A stretch of 64,000 bases of DNA from Sacculina carcini. Lineage: Eukaryota; Arthropoda; Thecostraca; Sacculinidae. A program made the position numbers and the translations under genes. Position 1 is the first letter of the stretch. Each line of letters begins with the position of its first letter. The stretch spans positions 661,501 to 725,500 of the forward strand of contig OU696589.1 of assembly GCA_916048095.2 (NCBI GenBank). Reading direction: 5' to 3'. This document shows positions 10,108-63,961 of this stretch, piece after piece. Below the pieces are notes generated by a model, which ran no database searches, had not been told where the DNA came from, and saw nothing but the letters and a program-made list of their open reading frames with translations.

Positions 10108-10119
10108 GCCGAAATAGCT
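10108..10119 (-). promoter_or_regulatory. primer binding site complementary to tRNA-Phe nt 1-12
   Basis: The plus strand reads GCCGAAATAGCT directly against the LTR end at 10120. That is the start of the common metazoan tRNA-Phe, so the element RNA carries its complement. No TGG-initial site for a tRNA 3' end is present. Confidence 0.7.
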
Positions 10120-16379: not shown

Positions 16380-18490
16380 CAGCTAATATTGACTTGAACG
16401 ACGACGTGACGTGAATTGACGTGAATATTGATACTGATCGTGCGGCTTCGATTCCACCACAAATCCGATTCTGTTCTAGCGTTTACTGTGTGCACCGGTC
16501 TAATTTGGCAGAAACACTTTATCCCCTGTCTGTAGTGGTTGTAACTGACGAGTGCACTGCTCCCTGTCCATTTGATGCATGAATAATAGTCGGAGGCATT
16601 CTCCTGGATGTTACATGCATCCCTCCACACCAGATACAAATTTGGCCATTAAACACTGATGTATCTGGTGGGATGGGACTTAAGTTTGACATATTCCTGT
16701 CAAGCGCCACTTGAAGAATATAGCTCAAAGGCCTAGGTGGCACCTGCTACACAGGAAGAAGACAAAGCTTATGAACACACAGGTGAGTCCTGTGCAGTTC
16801 GCTGACACCGCAGAACCGGCCCTCTCCACGCTATGGCGCCATAAGGACGAAAGACGAATTAGAGAGGGCCACCTCCCAGATTGCATGACACAACACATGA
16901 CTGATATATGGTACGCATTTACTGCTGGGTGGACAGGGGCTGTTGGATTAAGGAATTCGCCCAAGAAATTCTGTCCGACCGGGTTTCAAACCACGGACCT
17001 CCCGCTTGTGAGGCGGGTGTGCTAACCACTACACCACGGAGTCCACAAACGGAGTCAACTTGTGCGGCCGATAATCCGGACTCTGTGTAGGGCGTTTTTC
17101 GGTACTTGAGCAAGCCTGACGCCACGACCTCCGTGTCCACAATCCCCTGTTTGTTGGTGTGTGATGTGAGCAGGTGATTAATTGAATTAACTGTAACTAC
17201 GGCCCTTCCGTTCGACTGAGGGTAGTACGCTGACGGAATGTGGTGTTTCACACCCCATATTTTTGGGAAGTCCTCTGTTTCTTTCGCTGTGTATTCGGGA
17301 TCGCCGTCGGCACCGAGCTCTTTCGTTACACCGATGGCGATAAGTATGCAATGATTTTCGGTAAAAAAAATTTCATGCCCGATTTGAGGTCACCCGCTTA
17401 ACCTGTCCACTATCACCAAGTTTCATGAGCCTATCAGCAGACTTAAATCTGCAGCGATGGCTTGAAATGGTCTGGTGGTAACGTTTGGTGGTCGTCGCGG
17501 CAAATTCGACTGTGACGGGAACACTATCCAGCGGTCGGAACACTGCTCGAGTGCGCTTGATATTTCAGGACGTCCCCGGCCAAAAATTTGAATCGTGCGT
17601 TCTGCCAAACGTACGGCTGGTACCTTAATGAGTAGCGTGTAGTATGTGCCAAATATCGCCCAGCAGATGGGTGACATTTTGCACATACTACACGTTACTT
17701 ATCAAGTTGTCATCACGTTACTCATTCTGCACTTGCTACGCATTTCCTACGCTGGAATGAAAATGTTGTTCTTCATCAATATCATGTCGTCGACTGCGGT
17801 CATGTCGTTTCGGTATCGTCAGTATGGCTACAATATTTCAGGAACATCTGCACATCATGGCCTGATGCTGGAAACCCATGTTATATAATTTTCAACATTG
17901 CGTGGAACTGTGTCTTAAATTTTTTCCAGGTTGAATCTCCAAATGATGCGATAAGCATCTTGCCACTGGCACAATCGTAGTCTCCATCTCATAGTCATTG
18001 TTGGTCGGACAGCTTATGATAGACAGTGCACTTACTACTACTGTTTCATCACAATTAGCAGACATGTTTCTTTATGTCGCGTGTACTACTGGTATTAATT
18101 TTCCGGGAACTTGCATGATTCGTTACTGCCACATCAGTAATATTTGCTTCAACCGAAACAAGGCAGGATTTGCTGTTCCCCCTAGAGCTCTGTCCCCATG
18201 ATGTTGACGAGCGGCCTTTGGTCCGTTGTCACTACCTAACACCGCCAATCCATGGTGAAAACGCGCGTGCGTTCAAGTGCCCATGCCACCACTGAAACTT
18301 CTCCATCAACATGGCGTATCTTTTTTGTGTCTCTCAGAAATATTGAGCCTGCTATTATCCACCCGTCTTTAAAACAGCCAGTGTCATCCGAATGGCAGTC
18401 ACAACATTTGGCGCTACCAGTATCTTACTCCAGTCTTCGACCAGTCTAGATGCAAGCAGGCAGCCCTCTGACGGTGGAAAATTTGCACAA
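16380..18490 (-). pseudogene. Gypsy-6: K02A2.6-like pol remnant (RNase H to integrase)
   Basis: On the minus strand, 18300-18060 carries VTTDQRPLVNIMG and RLKQ.LLMWQ-like blocks of RNase H. 17900-17740 carries YWRYRNDMTAVDD and ILMKNNIFIP before the integrase zinc domain. 17686-17423 carries RPPNVTTRPFQAIAADLS, the entry to the catalytic core. 17251-17080 carries HIPSAYYPQSNGRA with the usual downstream helix, and 16560-16480 carries QPLQTGDKVF. The frames are scattered. A SINE (16737-17044) splits the integrase, and Gypsy-4 starts four bases past the right end. Confidence 0.75.
16737..17044 (-). mobile_element. tRNA-Val-derived SINE, copy 2
   Basis: The minus strand begins GGACTCCGTGGTGTAGTGGT and has the anticodon arm CCCGCCTCACAAGCGGG (CAC) and a B box near GGTTTGAAACCC. 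The body matches copies 1 and 3 to the end gtggcacctgc at 16737. It is inserted in the Gypsy-6 integrase, so it is younger than that element. Confidence 0.9.
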
Positions 18491-28284: not shown

Positions 28285-29568
28285 AGTATGTACACAATAA
28301 ACAAAGGTAAATCAAAATATGTGGCGCATATTCATTAAGACAAAGCTCCTGATGGAAATTTAGGGTCAATATATAGATACATGAACAATTATACACGCAC
28401 AACACATACACGAACACTTATACACTTATACATACATTCAAAATATGTGGCGCATATTCATTAAGACAAAGCTCCTGATGGAAATTTAGGGTCAATATAT
28501 AGATACATGAACAATTATACACGCACAACACATACACGAACACTTATACACTTATACATACATTCATGTGTGCATACACATCAGTGATTCATCTTCCTCA
28601 ATGCGATGGCTGTAAGTCGCAACAACCAGCGGGCACTATTGCTGCTGCTGAAGCTGTTGTTGGCGTAAGTGTTATTTATCTGTATTTTAACAGAGTTCAG
28701 TGAGCCAGTGTGTGCTAAGGTTTTAATGTATGTTGGTAGATTATTATATATTTGAATGCCTGAATAGATTATACTGTTTCTGAATAGATTGGTTCAGAAT
28801 TGGGGTGTAATTAGAAGCAAATTTGTGTCACGCGTATTGTATTGGTTTTGCAAAGTTTTAAAGTAATGTTTGTTGCGACCGGCACGCACAGTTTTATTAT
28901 CAACAACGAGAGATTGTATTGAATATGAAACGATATTTTGAGTACATTTGAGGAGCTGAACAATGAAGAAGTAGAGTGGTATTTTGGCTTGAAATGAATA
29001 CACCTCATAATTCGCTTTTGTACTTTATCTAGTCTAGTTAGAAATGATGGTCATTTACATGACCATATTAGCATGCAGTATATTAAACGTGAGTAACCTA
29101 GAGCATAATATATACTAAGGATGGCCACACTTGTCAGTTTACTCCTGATTTTGTATATCACACCGCACAAATTTGACAAGGAGCAAACAACATTATCTAT
29201 ATGATTCTTCCCGTTCAGATGCTCATCTATTTGAATTCCTAAAAATTTAGTACTAGTGACATTCTCGACAGGCAAATTTTTCCAATTTATTCCTGATAGT
29301 GAATTTTTCAGAGATCTATTTTGAAAAAGAATATATTTTGTTTTACTTAATATATTTATTTTCAAATTATTAGCTTTTATCCACTGCGATAGCTTCACTA
29401 ATTCGGAGCTTACATCATTTCGCAGAGAAGGTAGGTTTTCTCCAGGCAATAATATAGTTGTGCCATCAGCATATATAACAAACTCGAATTAGGAACTAGT
29501 ATTCATTATATCATTAATCATTTCAATCAATCAATCATACCCTTATATCATTATTCATTATATTCATT
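28244..29568 (-). mobile_element. LINE inserted in BEL-2, 5'-truncated
   Basis: Flanked by AATGT on both sides (28239-28243 and 29569-29573). The BEL-2 frame (...FAIHTT / GWAVNGPV...) is continuous across the insertion once it is ignored. The 3' tail is a TTTAC repeat (plus taaag, 28243-28262). The minus strand carries RT: the catalytic box reads YADGTTILLPGENLP, with glycine for the second aspartate, followed by LSQWIKANNLKIN and FLGIQIDEHLNGKNHI. Younger than BEL-2. Confidence 0.85.
28312..28563. repeat. 126-bp tandem duplication
   Basis: 28312-28437 is repeated directly as 28438-28563 with no difference I can see. It lies in the 3' untranslated part of the inserted LINE. Confidence 0.95.
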
Positions 29569-35528: not shown

Positions 35529-35945
35529 TGTGGTTGAATATATTGAAGTAAAGGTGAACACAAATGCACAATGTAAACACGGACTCCACTGAGCTAGCAA
35601 AACAAAACACTACGCAGTTAAGATACAATAGGCGTAAGACAACGATATCTACACCGCACTTGCACACACTCGCCTCCTCACGCCAAGATTCAACACCGAA
35701 CTGTCACCCATCAACACAACACTCGATACCCAACGCATCACTGCCACCTGATACCTCGTCAGCACCTTGCAACGAGTGCATTGTGCAAACACACACCTGC
35801 ACACAAACATACATACACAATGCGGAACACTACGCCAGCAAATGCAAGCCCAGCCACACACACACACACACATGCAGACACACACCTGCACATAACGAAA
35901 AACTTCAACTAAAACAATATGACAAGATAATATCACAAAACTACA
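35529..35945 (-). repeat. Gypsy-3 3' LTR
   Basis: Begins TGTGGTTGAATATATTG and ends CACAAAACTACA. It has a CA-rich microsatellite-like centre. Confidence 0.93.
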
Positions 35946-38459: not shown

Positions 38460-38471
38460 GGCCGGTTAGCT
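38460..38471 (-). promoter_or_regulatory. primer binding site complementary to tRNA-Ile nt 1-12
   Basis: The plus strand reads GGCCGGTTAGCT directly against the LTR at 38472, identical to the start of common animal tRNA-Ile(AAT). No 3'-end type site is present. Confidence 0.7.
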
Positions 38472-38886
38472 TGTGGTTGAATATATTGAAGTTAAGGTGA
38501 ACACAAATGCACAATGTAAACACGGACTCCACTGAGACAGCAACACAAAACACTACTCAGTTAAAATACAATAGGCGTATCACAACGATATCTACACCGC
38601 ACTTGCACACACTTGCCTCCTCACGCCGAGATTCAACACCGAACTGTCACCCATCAACACGGCACTTGATACTCAACGCGTAACTGCCACCTGATACCTC
38701 GTCAGCACCTTGCAACGAGTGCATTGTGCAAACACACACCCACACACAAACATGTATACACAATGCGGAACAATACGCCATCAAATGCAAGCCCACGCAC
38801 ACACATGCACACACACACACACACAAATGCAAATAACGAAAACCTTCAACTCAAACTATATGACAAGATAATATCACAAAAACACA
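38472..38886 (-). repeat. Gypsy-3 5' LTR
   Basis: Partner of 35529-35945 with scattered substitutions, so it is older than Gypsy-2. Confidence 0.93.
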
Positions 38887-42572: not shown

Positions 42573-43582
42573 GTGACGAAGGGGTGTTCGACAATTGACG
42601 CATTGAATGAGGATGCTCATGTGCTCTTAATCGAGTCTTGTTTGAACACTTTTGACAAGCGCATGGAGAAATTGGAAACTGCTCAGCAAACTGTTGAGAG
42701 TTTTTTGGTGGAATATGCCCTCATGAAGAGCATTGACAAGGCCAGTGAGTTTCATGACACCGCCATGAATTTTCGCCTGAATGCTACGAGATTGTTGCAG
42801 AAATTATCTACAAACCATAAACAAGAAATTCCGACGTCGGTTTCGTCTGCTGGAGCAAGTCATCCTACCAGTGGTTTGCATAAGCTGGATCTGGCCGTTT
42901 TCAGTGGAGACATTATGGAGTGGCAAACGTTCTGGGAGAAGTTATCTGTCAATATTGGTCAGACTGATCTGCCGCCCATCAACAAGTACAGTTATTACTG
43001 TCGCTGCTGAAACGAGAAGCCACGGCTGCTGCCGACGGTTTGGCTTTGACTGCAGATAATTACAGTGTCTGCTGTGAAATATTGTTGAAACGATTTGGCA
43101 AGACGGAGCGAATAATATTAGTTCATGTGCAGCAGCTGATCGATCTTGGTATCAGCACATCGTCAACGGTTGCAGGTGATATGGTTCGGTCGCTGCACAA
43201 GCTGTACAACTCTTTGGTTAAGCATATTCGTAGCCTGGAGTCGCTGGACATCAAAAGTGACAGGTATGGTTTGATCTTAACAACGTTGATATTGTCAAAG
43301 TTGCCTAATGACATTCGAATGGGATGGACCAGGATCTCGGAAGACAAGGAGGACGATATAGAATTTTTGTTGAATTATCTGGAAAGAGAGATATCGTACT
43401 ATGAGCGTTCTTCCATGGTAAATGTGAATCATAAGATAGCTAACGTTCAAGAACATATAGCCAAGTCATTTCCGGCTTCTGCTTCAGTACTGAATGTTGT
43501 GTCTTCAGACAAGTGTGTATTTTGCAAAGATGCTCACGCATCGGAAACATGCGATTATATTCCTAGACTTTCTGTAAGTTAA
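42573..43582 (+). pseudogene. BEL-1 gag
   Basis: Two frames. 42573-43010 has an N-terminal coiled coil (FDKRMEKLETAQQTVESFLV) and the Pao capsid start LDLAVFSGDIMEWQTFWEKL. 43040-43582 has LTADNYSVCCEILLKRFGK, ILSKLPNDIRMGWTRI and ends in the first zinc cluster CVFCKDAHASETC. A single frameshift near 43010 and a stop at 43582 interrupt it. Confidence 0.9.
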
Positions 43583-45480: not shown

Positions 45481-46196
45481 ATTAATGCAGAAATTGTGGT
45501 ATATGGGCTTAGACTGTGATGAGATGTAGACGGGTGCGTGTCGTGAATGTTTTGATGGTTGGCTGCAGGAGCTGTCAGCAATTCAAAGAGTTCCAGTCCC
45601 TCGATATTTTGGCACATCTATTTCACAAACAGAGTTAGAGATCCACATATTGGTGATGCTTCGCCATTGGGATACGGCGCATGTGTGTACCTGAGATGAT
45701 CTGACTGTAATTGTGCATTTACCACAGGTCTTGTGATGTCAAGAGCAAGAGTTGATCCATTGAAGTGCATCGCCCTTCCTAGATTGGAATTGCTATCCTG
45801 TCTATTGTCATCTTGCTTGCTTAAATATGTACGTGACATGCTACACCTGCTACACAAGGTGTCCCTACCAACTGTGGACAGATTCGAGGGTAGCGCTCGG
45901 CTGGGTTCGAGGCGATGTAAGCTAGTGGAAATTCTTTGTCAGTTACCGCGTACGCGAGATCCCAGAGTTGTCCGATCCAATGAACTGTTGTGTCTGTCCA
46001 GAGTCAGACAACCCCGCTGACTTGATGACTCGTGAAGCAAAGGCAGAAGTTATTAACTCACAATTTTAGCTACATGGACCCGCCTGGCTGGAAGGGCCTC
46101 GTGATGCGTCTCATTCCTTTGATCAACGTGTTATGGATGAACCATTTGAGATCAATAATGTTATTTTCGTGGTTTCAGACTGTGGCTCTTGGCTAC
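45480..46196 (+). pseudogene. BEL-1 RNase H, cut by Gypsy-2
   Basis: The block SRARVDPLKCIALPRLELLS (45733 onward) is the Pao RNase H core, with the serine-glutamate pair that contributes a catalytic acid. 45880-46030 continues toward the linker in mixed frames. The coding ends at the Gypsy-2 target site GCTAC (46192-46196). Confidence 0.82.
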
Positions 46197-46370
46197 TGTA
46201 GTAGAGTCAGATGACAGCAGCACCACGTTTCACCTGTATTTTCATGCACCAGCGCTCAGCAATCAAACACCATCCTTCCACAGACAACGCACACATTCAA
46301 CTCCCCCAGCACCGGCTTCTCATGACCATCGCACACCAGCACACATCAACATACATGTAAATGCACACAC

Positions 46371-46449
<79 letters not shown>

Positions 46450-46608
46450 ACTACCTGCCACAACGCTCAAATGCAAGTCGAGCCGAGTCAGCAAGCTGAC
46501 GCTGCAAACATGCACACACTCGCACACAGACATACATATGCACGCGAATACGACACTCACTCACACCGCTCTGGCTAGATATGTAGCACTCTAATATACT
46601 AACGCACA
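46197..46608 (-). repeat. Gypsy-2 3' LTR
   Basis: TGTAGTAGAGTC to ACGCACA, with a (CA)n run at 46361-46446 that is longer than in the partner. Confidence 0.96.
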
Positions 46609-46749: not shown

Positions 46750-49293
46750 TCATCGGACGGCGTGCTGCCGCTTCTCAATCTGCCTCGCTGATCTGCGGGG
46801 CTGAAAACCCGATAAAGCGTCACATTCCTCGCGACTCCGTCGATGAGGCAGAGTGATGAACATTTCATCATCCGCGTTGTCATCTGGAACTTCTGGTTGT
46901 TCAGCCTCGTTATGAGACTGATCACGAGGTCGCAGATCGCGCACGTGGCGCGGAACGTTATCCACCTCCACAGATTGATGCGAAACCACACCAGTGACCA
47001 CACCCTTACCGTATCTCTGATCACATCGCACGTTTGGTGGTTTCACCCACACCAAGTCTCCCTTCTTGTACACACAATCTTCTGATTCGCCCGTCAGCGT
47101 TGAAACCTTATCAATGCCTCGCACTCTGACTGCGTATTTGTACAGTTCAGCGGCTGGACAACTGTCTGATCCGCTACCACGCGGCGTCACGTTATACAAG
47201 TATACTGCCTCGGCCAGAGAACACCCTTTTCTAGCCGCTATAACCTTCACGGTGCGATGGTTACGCTCCACCACCCCGTTACCACTTGGTACATACGCAC
47301 ACCTGAACCTCAGTCTGACTCCCCATCTTTCAGCAAAAGCCGCGAAGAGCTTACTTCTGAAAGCCGTATCGTTATCGCCGAAAAGCTCTTCCGGAGGTCC
47401 ACGCTCGCAGAAAACACTCTCAAGTTGCTCGATGACACACGCGGCGTTTTGCATGCGCAACGGCCGCCATATTGCAAACCGTGACGGTCCACAATCCACC
47501 ATGGTCAAGCACGACAATCCTTTCCAGTGGGTAATGTCGATAGCAACGCGTTGCCACACGCGCTCCACCTCCAGATGACCAGATCTCCATTTTGCCGGCG
47601 CTGGATCTACCGATTGACATATTTGGCACCGCTTTAGAGCCTCCCGTACCTCTCGCGAGCTCACATTCCGTCGCGTCCGTCTGACACACTGTAACGTCCT
47701 CCGAGCTCCAGGATGTCCCATCAGATGATGAACATCACGAATCACCCCTGCTGACGAGCACCCATCGTCTTCACACTCAGCAATTCCGCACCCGACGAAC
47801 GACGTTTTTGAGTCACTGAAGCAGTCAGTTGATAGCTTCAGCCACCGTTGAGGCACGCGCGTCATGCCGTCCGCTCTGTTTAGTGCCGAAGCCACTAACG
47901 TAACTGAAAGATCCAGGTTGTATTCTTCCACCAACGCGGCCACAATGTCAAGTCTCCTTCTCACCAGCAGTTCTCCTGCAGCCTTCGTTCGCAGTCGTCT
48001 CTTACCTGACAAACAATCAGTGACCCATCGATGAACAGTCAAAGAATCGGTAACAATTTCGATTTTCCGCATCTTCCACACCAAGGCCATATTCAGTCCT
48101 TTTATCAGTGCGTCTAATTCCGCCATGTTGATGTGCGTCGCACTGTCGGATCTCAGCCAACTTGCATCCTCAATTATGTTACCGTCAACGTCAAGACGAA
48201 CACCCATGGCGAGCGAGCTCGCGTCAACCCACACCTTCGCCTCGTGTCCTTCCACATTCCATCTGCCACAAACTGGATCATTATCCTTTACAACTCTCAG
48301 CACCTCCTTTAAACAAGTCTTTACGTGATCGTTCACAACTGGATCGTCCCAGCCCTTCGTGTGCGCATTCGTGAGCCGCTTGATAAAAGCTACTGCCACC
48401 CTCAGCCATCCACACACGGGGTAGTGACCGACTAATTTCCCACAAAACGAAAACACAGATCTTCTTGTTATCATTTCGGGCATTTCACAAACCTCCCCGT
48501 CTCTCCTCCACGACAGCGCACCACCCTCTCCCCAGACTCTCATTCCCAAGAGTCGCGCACCATCCGTCACCTTCACACTTGCCTTGCAAACGAGTCCATA
48601 TCGGTTCAAGTGACTCTCAACTCGCTCCACTTTGACAACATCCTCATTCACCAAGATATCGTCGACGTAAGCCGAAGTGCCTCTCTCAACTTCGGGGTCG
48701 GCTGACAACACAAAGTGCAGCACAGCTCTCATGACTAACGGTGAGACGTTCAATCCAAACGCCAGACGCGTTAGGCAATATCTTTGACCCTTCACAATCA
48801 CCGTTTGATATGGCCACATCTTATCAGACACCCGAATCTGCAAGTACGCTTTTTTCAAATCAAGCGTTGACACCTTCCTGCCCTGTCGTCTCCATTCACG
48901 CACTCGATCTGCGCACACATCAGCGTCTCTAGTGTGTACGTCAATGTGCTCGTTCACTTGCCTTAAATCCATCACTGGTCTCACTTTGTTTCTTTGTGGC
49001 ACCGCCATCAGCGGGACAAGACCTTTTGCAGGACCATGCTTCCGCTCATCATATGGAATCAGCCACTCCTCACGTATGCACTCTTCCAGTTCCTCCTCAA
49101 ATGCAGACCGGACATCGTGCGACATAGAATACTGCCCGACACGATTGTACAACACTCCGGGCTCTCCAGCATCTGACCACTTCCACTCAGCCGTCCACGT
49201 GCGTTTGACAGGGTCAAACACCACAACAAAATCTTTCTCTTCAATCCGAACAATTTTTGCATGCGAGACTGGAGCACAGTCCGTTCTGTTCGA
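46750..49293 (-). CDS. Gypsy-2 Pol: reverse transcriptase, RNase H, integrase
   Basis: It is open from just after the TAG at 49294 to 46750, ~847 codons, with the first methionine at 49224. RT motifs are NKVRPVMDLRQVNEH, VSTLDLKKAYLQIRV and TSAYVDDILVNEDVV. RNase H motifs are VWVDASSLAMGVRLD, NMAELDALIKGLN, EIVTDSLTVHRW and ALNRADG. Integrase has the zinc domain (HHLMGHPGARRTLQ, RCQICQSVDPAP) and core acids in VAIDITHW, LFGDNDTAFRS and GNGVVERNHR, then KKGDLVWVKPP and VPRHVRDLRPRDQ. All catalytic residues are present, with no frameshift. Confidence 0.95.
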   Translation of the reverse strand, partial: SNRTDCAPVSHAKIVRIEEKDFVVVFDPVKRTWTAEWKWSDAGEPGVLYNRVGQYSMSHDVRSAFEEELEECIREEWLIPYDERKHGPAKGLVPLMAVPQRNKVRPVMDLRQVNEHIDVHTRDADVCADRVREWRRQGRKVSTLDLKKAYLQIRVSDKMWPYQTVIVKGQRYCLTRLAFGLNVSPLVMRAVLHFVLSADPEVERGTSAYVDDILVNEDVVKVERVESHLNRYGLVCKASVKVTDGARLLGMRVWGEGGALSWRRDGEVCEMPEMITRRSVFSFCGKLVGHYPVCGWLRVAVAFIKRLTNAHTKGWDDPVVNDHVKTCLKEVLRVVKDNDPVCGRWNVEGHEAKVWVDASSLAMGVRLDVDGNIIEDASWLRSDSATHINMAELDALIKGLNMALVWKMRKIEIVTDSLTVHRWVTDCLSGKRRLRTKAAGELLVRRRLDIVAALVEEYNLDLSVTLVASALNRADGMTRVPQRWLKLSTDCFSDSKTSFVGCGIAECEDDGCSSAGVIRDVHHLMGHPGARRTLQCVRRTRRNVSSREVREALKRCQICQSVDPAPAKWRSGHLEVERVWQRVAIDITHWKGLSCLTMVDCGPSRFAIWRPLRMQNAACVIEQLESVFCERGPPEELFGDNDTAFRSKLFAAFAERWGVRLRFRCAYVPSGNGVVERNHRTVKVIAARKGCSLAEAVYLYNVTPRGSGSDSCPAAELYKYAVRVRGIDKVSTLTGESEDCVYKKGDLVWVKPPNVRCDQRYGKGVVTGVVSHQSVEVDNVPRHVRDLRPRDQSHNEAEQPEVPDDNADDEMFITLPHRRSREECDALSGFQPRRSARQIEKRQHAVR

Positions 49294-49821
49294 CTAGCCA
49301 TCCCGTTTTTCAACGCAGTGCTCATGAGCTGCACGGCTCAAATCACCGTCACATTCATCTGGAACCTTATCTCTAGCACCGAGACACACCCCTAGCGTAG
49401 GACGACTCACTACCTTAAGACCTTGGGCTCCGAACCGAACAACACGCGAGGAGCTGACCGTCACACCTCCCAACATTTCAACACCGTTCATCCCCATGAT
49501 AAACTCGAAACCCAAAGGTCGAATGGCCACCACCAACACTTTCAACAGTCGCACCCCATTCACTCCATCAATACATACTCTCACATTTCCAATCCCTTTG
49601 CACCTTTGCCGCTGCCCTGACATTGTCACAATTCTTGTTTCTATGGGTCTGAATTCACTGCAGAGAGACACATGAGCTACACAAATCGAACATCCAGTGT
49701 CCACCAATGCTGTCGTCCGCTCGCCGTTAAAACACATTGAAACAGTAGGAAGCGCAGAATTTAGAGAGCGGGAGAAGACGCTTGCGCAAACGGCCTCTCC
49801 CCTTGGTCGTTTCCCGAACAC
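49294..49821 (-). CDS. Gypsy-2 aspartic protease
   Basis: Entered from gag by a -1 shift, giving GKRPRGEAVCASVFSRSL. The catalytic block is TTALVDTGCSICVAHVSL and the second conserved strand is GFEFIMGMNGVEMLGGV. It ends at TAG (49294-49296) after HCVEKRDG. The downstream Pol frame is the same frame, so readthrough of this one codon would give a PR-Pol fusion. The homologous stretch of Gypsy-1 has no stop here, which favours a nonsense mutation, but readthrough remains possible. Confidence 0.9.
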   Translation of the reverse strand: MFGKRPRGEAVCASVFSRSLNSALPTVSMCFNGERTTALVDTGCSICVAHVSLCSEFRPIETRIVTMSGQRQRCKGIGNVRVCIDGVNGVRLLKVLVVAIRPLGFEFIMGMNGVEMLGGVTVSSSRVVRFGAQGLKVVSRPTLGVCLGARDKVPDECDGDLSRAAHEHCVEKRDG

Positions 49822-50567
49822 TCTCGAGAGAAATGTCCGACTTCATTGCAGCGATGACACCGCACCACACTGCCACGGGCCACAGCGCCTCTCCTCATTG
49901 TTCTTCCTCTAGAGCTCACAGCTCCGTCCCGACAATATCTGGCAAAATGTCCTGTTCCGCCACAAGCAAAACAACGTAGCTGAGTATTCCTGATGATTGG
50001 CACGGTCGCTGTTCGAGCACCAAGTCCTGATTGCACAAATGACGCCTGAGGGTCCTCCTGCAACAGAATGCGAGCACGAGCCAGAACTTGATAAATGTCC
50101 AGGACTTCCACGCGTGAGCCCGCCCTCAAAAGCTGACGCACATTGGAAGGCAGCCCTGCAAAAAACGCGCACGTGATCGCTGTCTCTGGTACGCCACCGA
50201 ATAGCACAGCCAAACGTCTCAAATCCGCCAGATATATGTCCGGTGACTCGCCAGAGTACAGTTTGCGGCGCGTGAACTGTTCATAGGCGGTAAACCGATC
50301 CGCGCCAAATGCAGCTTTCAACTCAGCCTTTAGTTTGTCGCAATTAACCCGATCGAGGGGGTTCATCTGCTGAAACACCGCAAACGCCCCTCCTGTCACG
50401 CGTAGCGCAATGACAGTTGCGACATCGTCCACATTTTTGAGCTGACATACGACCTCTACTTTTTCCAGCCATTCCGAAACATCTTGTTTCCCGGAGCCGT
50501 CAAACTCGGGGATGAGCTTGAGATCAAAATTTGACTGCGATCCACTCGATTGATCAGGATTACTCAT
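49761..50567 (-). CDS. Gypsy-2 Gag
   Basis: 268 codons, starting MSNPDQSSGSQSNFDLKLIP 18 bases after the primer site. The capsid has LIPEFDGSGKQDVSEWLEKV and EQFTRRKLYSGESPDIYLAD. The nucleocapsid has two zinc knuckles, CFACGGTGHFARYC and CHRCNEVGHFSREC, both with all C-C-H-C ligands. Gag ends at 49761 and overlaps the protease frame by at least 60 bases around the slippery site. Confidence 0.95.
   Translation of the reverse strand: MSNPDQSSGSQSNFDLKLIPEFDGSGKQDVSEWLEKVEVVCQLKNVDDVATVIALRVTGGAFAVFQQMNPLDRVNCDKLKAELKAAFGADRFTAYEQFTRRKLYSGESPDIYLADLRRLAVLFGGVPETAITCAFFAGLPSNVRQLLRAGSRVEVLDIYQVLARARILLQEDPQASFVQSGLGARTATVPIIRNTQLRCFACGGTGHFARYCRDGAVSSRGRTMRRGAVARGSVVRCHRCNEVGHFSRECSGNDQGERPFAQASSPAL
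49770..49815 (-). promoter_or_regulatory. -1 frameshift signal, Gypsy-2 gag/pro
   Basis: GGGAAAC (49815 to 49809) is positioned as G GGA AAC in the gag frame. After 7 nt comes a 6-bp stem GGGAGA/TCTCCC (49801-49796 with 49775-49770), whose loop holds the palindrome TTGCGCAA. The same heptamer is at the same place in Gypsy-1. Confidence 0.8.
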
Positions 50568-50584
50568 GATTGAATCAGTAAAAA

Positions 50585-50596
50585 GCCGAAATAGCT
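50585..50596 (-). promoter_or_regulatory. primer binding site complementary to tRNA-Phe nt 1-12
   Basis: The plus strand reads GCCGAAATAGCT abutting the 5' LTR edge at 50597. That edge is fixed independently by LTR comparison and by the target duplication. Confidence 0.78.
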
Positions 50597-50770
50597 TGTA
50601 GTAGAGTCAGATGACAGCAGCACCACGTTTCACCTGTATTTTCATGCACCAGCGCTCAGCAATCAAACACCATCCTTCCACAGACAACGCACACATTCAA
50701 CTCCCCCTGCACCGGCTTCTCATGACCATCGCACACAAGCACACATCAACATACATGTAAATGCACACAC

Positions 50771-50831
<61 letters not shown>

Positions 50832-50990
50832 ACTACCTGCCACAACGCTCAAATGCAAGTCGAGCCGAGTCAGCAAGCTGACGCTGCAAACATGCACACA
50901 CTCGCACACAGACATACATATGCACGCGAATACGACACTCACTCACACCGCTCTGGCTAGATATGCAGCACTCTAATATACTAACGCACA
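50597..50990 (-). repeat. Gypsy-2 5' LTR
   Basis: Near-identical partner of 46197-46608, with a shorter (CA)n run. Confidence 0.96.
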
Positions 50991-50995
50991 GCTAC

Positions 50996-58814: not shown

Positions 58815-59900
58815 TCAAATGAGTTTGCCAATGTGATAATCAAAGCACGGCGAACACTTCTTGCATTGCAAAGGAGTTTGAACTTCCATCCATAAGATCA
58901 TAGCATTCAGAGCGCTTATATCAATCATGTTTAAAAAGATCTTCTCCTCTCTGATCTGAACGACTCGACAAATTTGACATTGTGCATGATACTGAGTAAT
59001 GTAACAACTTTGTTTTTCTTTGGACAATAAGAAACAATAGTCGCATCTTTTTTAAAGCCATACATGTTACTAAAATCTTTCTATATCTAGTGACAGAAAA
59101 AGCCCTGGGCAGTTCAGGTCGATTTTTTCTAATTCTCCCAAATATTATAAGTTTTCTACGCAGGAGCTCTCGTCCTAATTGGAAGTTTGTGAAGAAATTG
59201 TCGGAGGTGATATTTTTTCCGCTGTTTTTGTAAGCATCATATAGGTTTAGAACAACTGTAGCTCCCAGGTGTGTAGCTCTTTGTTTACTTTGTTCGCCAA
59301 CTTTGTAAATGTCCAATTTCAATGCATAGCTTGTTTGACTGTCACAAATAGCCCTACATTTGATTTCATAATTTCCAGGCTTCGATGGGATGTATTGACT
59401 GAAAGGACATCTACTTCGAAATGTTACTAGTTGCTCATCAACAGTCAAGTTGGCACCTGGGATAAATGCATCTTGTAATGTGCTGTTCAACATGTCAAAT
59501 ACCTTCCTTATTGGTTGTAATTTATCTGGATATCTATGCTGCCTCCTTTCAACAGCGTTGTCGAATCGCATCATGCGAAAAATTTCTTGCAACATATTTC
59601 TTGCAAATATTGCGCAGAAGATTGGTCGTCCATCGCCTTTGCTCCATAACTGATTAACTGTTTCTCCTTTGGATTTCTAAACGCCAATGAGTAGAAGAGT
59701 TCCAATGAATTTCTTCAGCTCTTCAATATCTAGCTGCCTTCACTCATCTTGGAGTAATGCGTTTCCTTCAATGTTCGTATATGTGCAAATCTCCTGAAGT
59801 AATGCATCTCGAAAAAATAGTAAAAATGCTGAAGCGATGTCGTCCACATTACGGTTAGCGTACCTAGTTAGACCACTCCTTTCACGTACAATGTTAAATA
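58815..59900 (-). pseudogene. piggyBac-2 transposase
   Basis: In order on the minus strand: NRNVDDIASAFLLFFRDALL-type N-terminal sequence (59860-59700), CAIFARNMLQEIFRMMRFDN, then an open frame from 59595 with LTVDEQLVTFRSRCPFSQY (first acid), PSKPGNYEIKCRAICDSQT and NITSDNFFTNFQLGRELL (second acid). 59027-58815 has ISALNAMILW near the C-terminus. Stops near 59680 and 58920 and the lack of a clean GGVD block mean it is inactive. A different subfamily from piggyBac-1. Confidence 0.85.
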
Positions 59901-59915
59901 AGGTTAAATGCTTAT

Positions 59916-60225
59916 GTGGCAGCTGCTACACGGGAAGAAGCCGAAGCTTATGAACACAGGCTTGCCCCGTGCAGCTCGCTGCCACCGCAGAACCGACCCT
60001 CTCCACGCTATGGCGCCACAAGGACGTAAGACGTATTAGAGAGGGCCACCTCCCCAGAATGCATGGTACAACTCATGACTTATATCTGGTACCATTATTT
60101 TCTCCTGGATGGACAGGGGCTGTGGGATTGTAGAATTCGCCCAATGAAATTCTGTTCCGCCGGGCTTCGAACCACGGACCTCCCGCTTGTGAGGCGGGTG
60201 TGCTAACAACTGCACCACGGAGTCC
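59916..60225 (-). mobile_element. tRNA-Val-derived SINE, copy 3
   Basis: The minus strand starts GGACTCCGTGGTGCAGTTGT, has the anticodon arm CCCGCCTCACAAGCGGG and a B box GGTTCGAAGCC. The best-preserved tRNA part of the three copies. It lies between piggyBac-2 and the Gypsy-5 LTR. Confidence 0.92.
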
Positions 60226-63949: not shown

Positions 63950-63961
63950 AGCTAATCAGCC
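63950..63961 (+). promoter_or_regulatory. primer-site-like block, tRNA-Ile 5' end variant
   Basis: AGCTAATCAGCC is the complement of GGCTGATTAGCT, two changes from tRNA-Ile nt 1-12. It is followed by an ATG at 63971 (MSAMNNDCAM...), the expected gag start, which runs off the window. Confidence 0.55.

Follow-up and report, generated by a model that had tools for sequence, protein, structure and literature searches.

Introduction

Three types of primer have been described previously, namely a whole tRNA, one half of a tRNA that has been cleaved in the anticodon stem, and a self primer, as set out in the available excerpts of a plant survey (PMC6317226). In conventional LTR elements the primer binding site (PBS) lies directly inside the 5' LTR and the primer is drawn from a tRNA, as at the locus described here, but conventional priming uses the opposite end of the tRNA, whereas here there is no pairing with CCA. 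In copia-type priming (Drosophila copia and the plant elements Osser, Bryco and Bianca) a cleaved 5' piece of the tRNA supplies the 3'-OH, and the geometry of our sites suggests that the same would apply here. The copia-type cut lies in the anticodon stem, whereas the one implied here falls in the D arm, at nt 12; our PBS covers the extreme 5' end of the tRNA and pairs with nt 1-12, not with nucleotides ending in the anticodon stem. Copia-type priming had been named in the first-pass annotation as a precedent with a different cut, which agrees with the excerpted survey, where half-tRNA primers are cut in the anticodon stem and confined to Ty1/copia elements (PMC6317226), in contrast to the Gypsy-type element here.

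Tf1/sushi elements are also Gypsy-type, and in them a short 5'-terminal RNA pairs with an LTR-adjacent PBS and has to be cut to yield a 3'-OH (PMC4600332, in excerpt). Their primer is the element's own mRNA, whereas here it would be the 5' end of a host tRNA. Some details of this likeness to Tf1/sushi self-priming are general background. Ty3 and Ty1 use a host tRNA in bipartite priming and Ty3 is also of Gypsy type; according to the excerpted source, synthesis in Ty3 begins at the 3' end of the tRNA, with a PBS that is bipartite (PMC5371799), whereas here a second contact was not detected within ~300 bases. From the sequence comparisons below we consider it probable that a Gypsy-type lineage in Sacculina carcini starts its minus-strand DNA on a 5' fragment of a host tRNA ending at nt 12.

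Results

The window and its host

The window is the whole stretch of 64,000 nucleotides of contig OU696589.1 that was analyzed, and the assembly searched comprises 264 Mb in 43 contigs. An animal source is indicated by the database relatives of the Gypsy-2 pol protein, which by name are from crustaceans and nematodes, and by a BEL-type DUF1759 frame in the repeats. Frames of this type are typical of animals. Genera named among the relatives are Trichuris, Amphibalanus, Petrolisthes and Macrobrachium.

42968-43579, plus strand: DUF1759 frame, presumably BEL/Pao-type

The window also holds three tRNA-Val-like repeats (1561-1830, 59954-60223 and 16777-17036), 89-90% alike and recognized as tRNA by ARAGORN or Rfam, which look like a tRNA-derived SINE. 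In addition, there is a perfect 126-base tandem duplication (28312-28563) and a transposase frame matching Pfam DDE_Tnp_1_7 (58924-59676), which we take to be piggyBac-type.

Gypsy-type elements with a tRNA 5'-end PBS

The PBS under study belongs to Gypsy-2 and recurs in further elements of the window, as follows.

50585..50596, minus strand: Gypsy-2 PBS, reading AGCTATTTCGGC in the sense direction, the complement of animal tRNA-Phe nt 1-12
50597..50990, minus strand: 5' LTR of Gypsy-2, pairs with 46197-46608 at 95% identity
46197..46608, minus strand: 3' LTR of Gypsy-2, pairs with 50597-50990 at 95% identity
46609..46619, minus strand: polypurine tract of Gypsy-2, sense TCAGGGGAGAG
46192..46196, no strand: left target-site duplication GCTAC (plus strand), flanking Gypsy-2
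50991..50995, no strand: right target-site duplication GCTAC (plus strand), flanking Gypsy-2
49764..50606, minus strand: gag frame of Gypsy-2, stop to stop (Pfam PF00098, CCHC knuckle, translation)
46753..49293, minus strand: pol frame of Gypsy-2 with RT, DUF7047, RNase H and integrase (Pfam and database relatives)
10108..10119, minus strand: PBS of Gypsy-1, 12 bases identical to the Gypsy-2 PBS
38460..38471, minus strand: Gypsy-3 PBS, reading AGCTAACCGGCC in the sense direction, the complement of host tRNA-Ile(AAT) nt 1-12
38472..38881, minus strand: 5' LTR of Gypsy-3, pairs with 35529-35940 at 91.5%, outer edge uncertain
35529..35940, minus strand: 3' LTR of Gypsy-3, pairs with 38472-38881 at 91.5%, inner edge uncertain
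63950..63961, plus strand: Ile-type PBS of the right-edge element, AGCTAATCAGCC, 10/12 to tRNA-Ile

Gypsy-2 has the TG...CA LTRs (ends TGT...ACA), the short duplication and the polypurine tract of a Ty3/Gypsy element, and the first-pass claim that its LTR edges are fixed independently by the LTR pair, the TG...CA ends and the GCTAC duplication was confirmed on all three counts. The domain order of pol (protease, RT, RNase H, integrase) is likewise that of Ty3/Gypsy; Pfam places RT at 135-215, RNase H at 382-426 and integrase at 517-668 of the Gypsy-2 frame, and the protease domain was seen in the body of Gypsy-1 only (Pfam). On the sense strand the junction reads ...CTACTACA / AGCTATTTCGGC / TTTTTACTG... 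with no spacer between LTR and PBS, and the gag frame runs on through the PBS. The 12 bases of the PBS are the complement of GCCGAAATAGCT, which is found at 50585-50596 and 10108-10119 and nowhere else in the window on either strand. The identity of the Gypsy-1 and Gypsy-2 sites had been noted from the sequence alone and holds. A partner LTR of Gypsy-1 was not found by repeat comparison, which gave microsatellite matches only, and its LTR edge is therefore placed by the PBS together with the gag frame behind it.

The Ile-type word GGCCGGTTAGCT occurs once in the window, both strands counted, at 38460-38471. The aligned LTR of Gypsy-3 lacks an initial TG and a clean duplication was not seen. 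At the right edge, the near match to tRNA-Ile that had been pointed out is present at 10 of 12 bases; the element belongs to the family of a copy elsewhere (L303) whose Ile site is exact, so the window copy looks decayed.

Matches of the Phe-type and Ile-type sites to tRNAs

The first-pass annotation had equated the Gypsy-3 site with nt 1-12 of tRNA-Ile, and the host genome bears this out. GGCCGGTTAGCTCAGTTGG occurs at ten places in the assembly, each called tRNA-Ile(AAT) by ARAGORN, and AGCTAACCGGCC complements the first 12 nt of this tRNA (12/12 from nt 1).

For tRNA-Phe, no host gene was found assembly-wide with patterns for the 5' half; GCCGAAATAGCTCA occurs at two places, neither a tRNA gene by ARAGORN. 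The anticodon-arm pattern gave 13 places, none read as tRNA-Phe by eye, and a control gave as many. With D arm plus anticodon and three mismatches there were six places, all with a Tyr anticodon and none tRNA-Phe, and the 12-mer combined with the T loop had no match in the assembly. In an Rfam tRNA search (63 of 15013 candidates scored, 51 matches listed), tRNA-Phe was absent among the 40 matches inspected. A host tRNA-Lys(CTT) was readable and is presumably identical to the human sequence. To our knowledge every animal needs a tRNA-Phe gene, and since runs of N were present in a few fetched loci, we take the missing gene as a gap in readability. The Phe match therefore rests on Drosophila: in the excerpted text of two papers, tRNA-Phe 5' probes end in exactly the 12 PBS letters (PMC7038984, PMC6542536). 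These printed probes agree with the earlier statement that the 12 bases directly inside the 5' LTR are nt 1-12 of animal tRNA-Phe. The forward sequence also appears in a published list of fragments of tRNAs, in the available part without a tRNA name beside it (PMC12025293).

That no tRNA-Phe gene is readable in the assembly favors another source for the primer, such as a tRNA-like transcript or some other small RNA of host or element in which these 12 bases occur. Against this, each of the two PBS types corresponds to nt 1-12 of a different tRNA, in the same register, with the Ile match verified in the host, and the two genomic GCCGAAATAGCTCA sites, the two places checked as an alternative source, are not tRNA genes. 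We regard such an RNA as an unlikely primer that nevertheless deserves some weight.

Of the ten fetched Ile-type loci, eight have gag frames or pieces of the same lineage behind the site (L295 and L302 do not). Changes between site types were analyzed on a gag tree built from 17 rows with the PBS-read residues removed; five rows were short and one Ile row (L305) has one site mismatch. Left out were the Ile loci L295, L298, L300, L301, L302 and L304 (near copies or no usable frame), the Phe loci L033 and L043, and all other Phe loci that duplicate an included family or have no gag. Four Phe/Ile changes are needed on this tree, in which 1 of 14 inner branches is strong and which rests partly on fragments; the strongly supported branches force at least two. 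A single Ile clade was rejected (p-AU 1.9e-5). Because the Ile-type rows do not form a single clade in gag, the PBS type changed at least twice in the same register, which is in line with the switch between two tRNA species at the same positions that had been proposed from the window.

Recurrence of the site across families

The Phe-type 12-mer occurs 2021 times in the genome (1016 and 1005 by strand), whereas 28 are expected from base composition and the reversed word occurs 5 times (3 and 2); the count is beyond chance. Among the first 30 loci together with Gypsy-1 and Gypsy-2, CA stands directly 5' of the 12-mer in 31 of 32 (L032 has CT), and the bodies behind it fall into 14 groups.

The recurrence was also examined from the protein side, using the gag protein of another family (L060) as query, which gave 145 genome matches. 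The sample was 60 of 109 divergent matches; the other 49 divergent and 36 closer or partial matches stood outside it. Residues 1-4 of the query are read from its own PBS, and 0 of the 109 divergent matches align to these residues. The earlier note had raised the possibility that other copies carry unrelated leader sequence at this place. Instead, 43 of 60 loci had the exact 12-mer and 8 had it with one mismatch; in 7 the stretch ends inside the site and all bases seen match (four bases in three loci, seven in two, ten in two), and 2 were without a site. Of the exact sites, 41/43 directly follow ...CA and the other two (L197 and L225) follow ...ACAATA.

Nine loci (L036, L037, L044, L045, L052, L053, L056, L057 and L059) have the same junction of LTR and PBS with no gag frame recognized behind it, and are probably non-autonomous elements that share the primer.

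An open search was made with GNNNNNNTAGCTTGT, a free 7-mer followed by TAGCTTGT, a pattern that itself demands an LTR end in ACA. It gave 3669 genome places vs 1691 for the reversed pattern. Among 100 places listed of the 3669, GCCGAAA accounted for 56, GGCCGGT for 10 and 29 other words for at most three each. Five loci with the other recurrent 7-mers GCAGCGA, GCGCCTG and GGACCTC were inspected and had no gag frame behind; by eye, some of them look tRNA-SINE-like.

Edges of the site and the case for other known primers

The edges were analyzed in 75 contexts sorted into 23 rough groups (ungapped, 55% identity) with one representative each; since an exact 12-mer was what the contexts were selected by, the information lies in the flanks alone. 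On the LTR side the last base is A in 23/23, preceded by C in 22/23 and before that by A in 21/23, and further out only T at -4 stands out (17/23). On the body side no column exceeds 12/23 and the bodies of the 23 groups are unlike. G was found in 0/23 representatives at each of the first two bases after the PBS, an absence that may reflect composition. G at -1, which is needed to pair with tRNA nt 13, was found in none of the 23 representatives, thus pairing ends at tRNA nt 12, at the terminal CA of the LTR. The check that had been suggested, whether matches always end at nt 12, was borne out in 23 of 23 representatives.

Five further elements were fetched, of which four have paired TG...CA LTRs (94-100% identical, in one element fully identical) that end at the PBS, with 5-bp duplications. 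A purine-rich stretch precedes the 3' LTR in three of these four (L290 is without), and for the fifth (L293) no LTR match reaching the PBS and no partner were found.

These edges bear on conventional priming, in which the 3' CCA end of a full-length tRNA would pair with a TGG-type site near the LTR and the 12-mer would have some other role. In the excerpted plant survey, PBSs are mostly complementary to tRNA 3' ends (PMC6317226). A TGG-type site of 18 nt at the LTR edge, which the earlier note had listed as a finding that would speak against priming by a tRNA 5' end, was looked for in the 23 family representatives and was not found; the comparison covered host tRNAs of 18 anticodons, with Phe absent from these. 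The stretches were up to 72 bases long, and in 6/23 representatives they contained no TGG from which 18 bases could be scored; the best match was 13/18 at 29 bases in, a score with no shuffled control behind it. The LTR edges, fixed by pairs and duplications in Gypsy-2 and four more elements, also argue against 3'-end priming, which we consider extremely improbable.

Self-priming of the Tf1 kind, in which the RNA of the element itself folds so that its 5' end meets the PBS, is known in Gypsy elements, and in Tj1 of S. japonicus the PBS is the complement of that element's mRNA 5' end (PMC4600332, in excerpt). In six of our elements a primer sequence in the own LTR did not rise above shuffles (best 6-8 of 12 bases, shuffle mean 7.1-8.0). 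Moreover, one PBS is common to families whose LTR ends differ, and the other PBS type again corresponds to a tRNA 5' end, which leaves self-priming with an almost negligible probability.

A second contact of the tRNA within ~300 bases was not seen above shuffles for 7- and 8-mers. The counts of 7-mers were 0 vs 4.1 in shuffles for Phe (14 loci, tRNA nt 13-34 only) and 9 vs 11.8 for Ile (7 loci, whole rest of the tRNA).

The junction in gag proteins on other contigs

The words TSYFG, QAISA and KLFR are the three frames of CA followed by AGCTATTTCGGC, and the 12-mer is translated in all three frames by different families. Gag relatives were searched for twice, and leaders reading through the junction were found in 13 of 120 relatives listed of 235 for one family, and in 1 of 120 listed of 223 in the second search (14/240 in total). 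T precedes SYFG in 5/5 and Q precedes AISA in 8/8 among the 240 listed relatives, and both residues are required by an LTR end in CA. Permuted words occurred on average 0 to 0.02 times. Of the 13 leaders, 12 were found by the leader rule, which was widened during the analysis, and P0187 lies just outside it. Some gag proteins on other contigs therefore read through this junction as well, and the host itself may be among the sources.

No Ile-type leader was seen among the listed gag relatives, and the junction was in none of the listed relatives that bear species names. KLTG, one frame of the Ile junction, was rejected as a marker because the gag core also contains it (9 proteins).

The 12-mer is located in the leader, where packaging signals can also sit, and it could be conserved for packaging, RNA folding or as a protein site. 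Such a role is very unlikely in our view: the 12-mer adjoins the LTR without a spacer and is followed by variable bodies, different families translate it in each of the three frames, and both of its two versions correspond to 5' ends of tRNAs.

Discussion

Priming by a tRNA stub, the reading we favor, would draw mostly on tRNA-Phe and in some families on tRNA-Ile. The 12 bases after the 5' LTR would pair with tRNA nt 1-12, and since extension requires a free 3'-OH at nt 12, cleavage of the tRNA in its D arm, after nt 12 and before nt 13, would be necessary. The cut may occur before annealing or after, and it may be made by a host nuclease or by the element's own RNase H. The first base copied would be the terminal A of the LTR, which would fix the LTR edge. 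Plus-strand synthesis would then copy the stub, run off at tRNA nt 1 and re-write the 12-base PBS. Copying that ends at nt 1 would account for the 12-base length of the conserved block. Ty3 has been reported to inherit its PBS and not to copy it from the tRNA (PMC7472051, in excerpt), so the re-writing step may fail for the Gypsy lineage here. A primer of 12 bp is short, and this counts against the stub model.

Regarding the cut, a bolder version is that the tRNA is still whole when its 5' end anneals and is then cut after nt 12 by the RT-RNase H of the element itself, which would make this a fourth primer class, lineage-wide in animals. The enzyme would make its own primer from a tRNA with UAGCU at nt 8-12. 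Tf1 is thought to cut its own mRNA, and if the RT-RNase H version were true, half-tRNA priming and self-priming would be joined in one mechanism. We put this version forward tentatively and hold it to be possible but doubtful.

The first-pass annotation named no Gypsy lineage with a cut at nt 12, and the open-access PMC literature, as far as its excerpts go, gave none either, nor an earlier description of a Gypsy element whose PBS matches the 5' end of a tRNA. In IMG/VR no relatives of the pol protein were found, and the matches to the 14-mer pattern listed there, in viral contigs, are presumably due to chance.

If priming by the tRNA stub is true, a Gypsy lineage primed by a 12-nt tRNA 5' stub, with its site present about two thousand times in a single genome, would add a fourth primer type to the three described. 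It would also define a role for 5' tRNA fragments, and it would pose the question which nuclease cleaves the D arm. For annotation, our results suggest that a search for complements of tRNA 3' ends would miss such PBSs.
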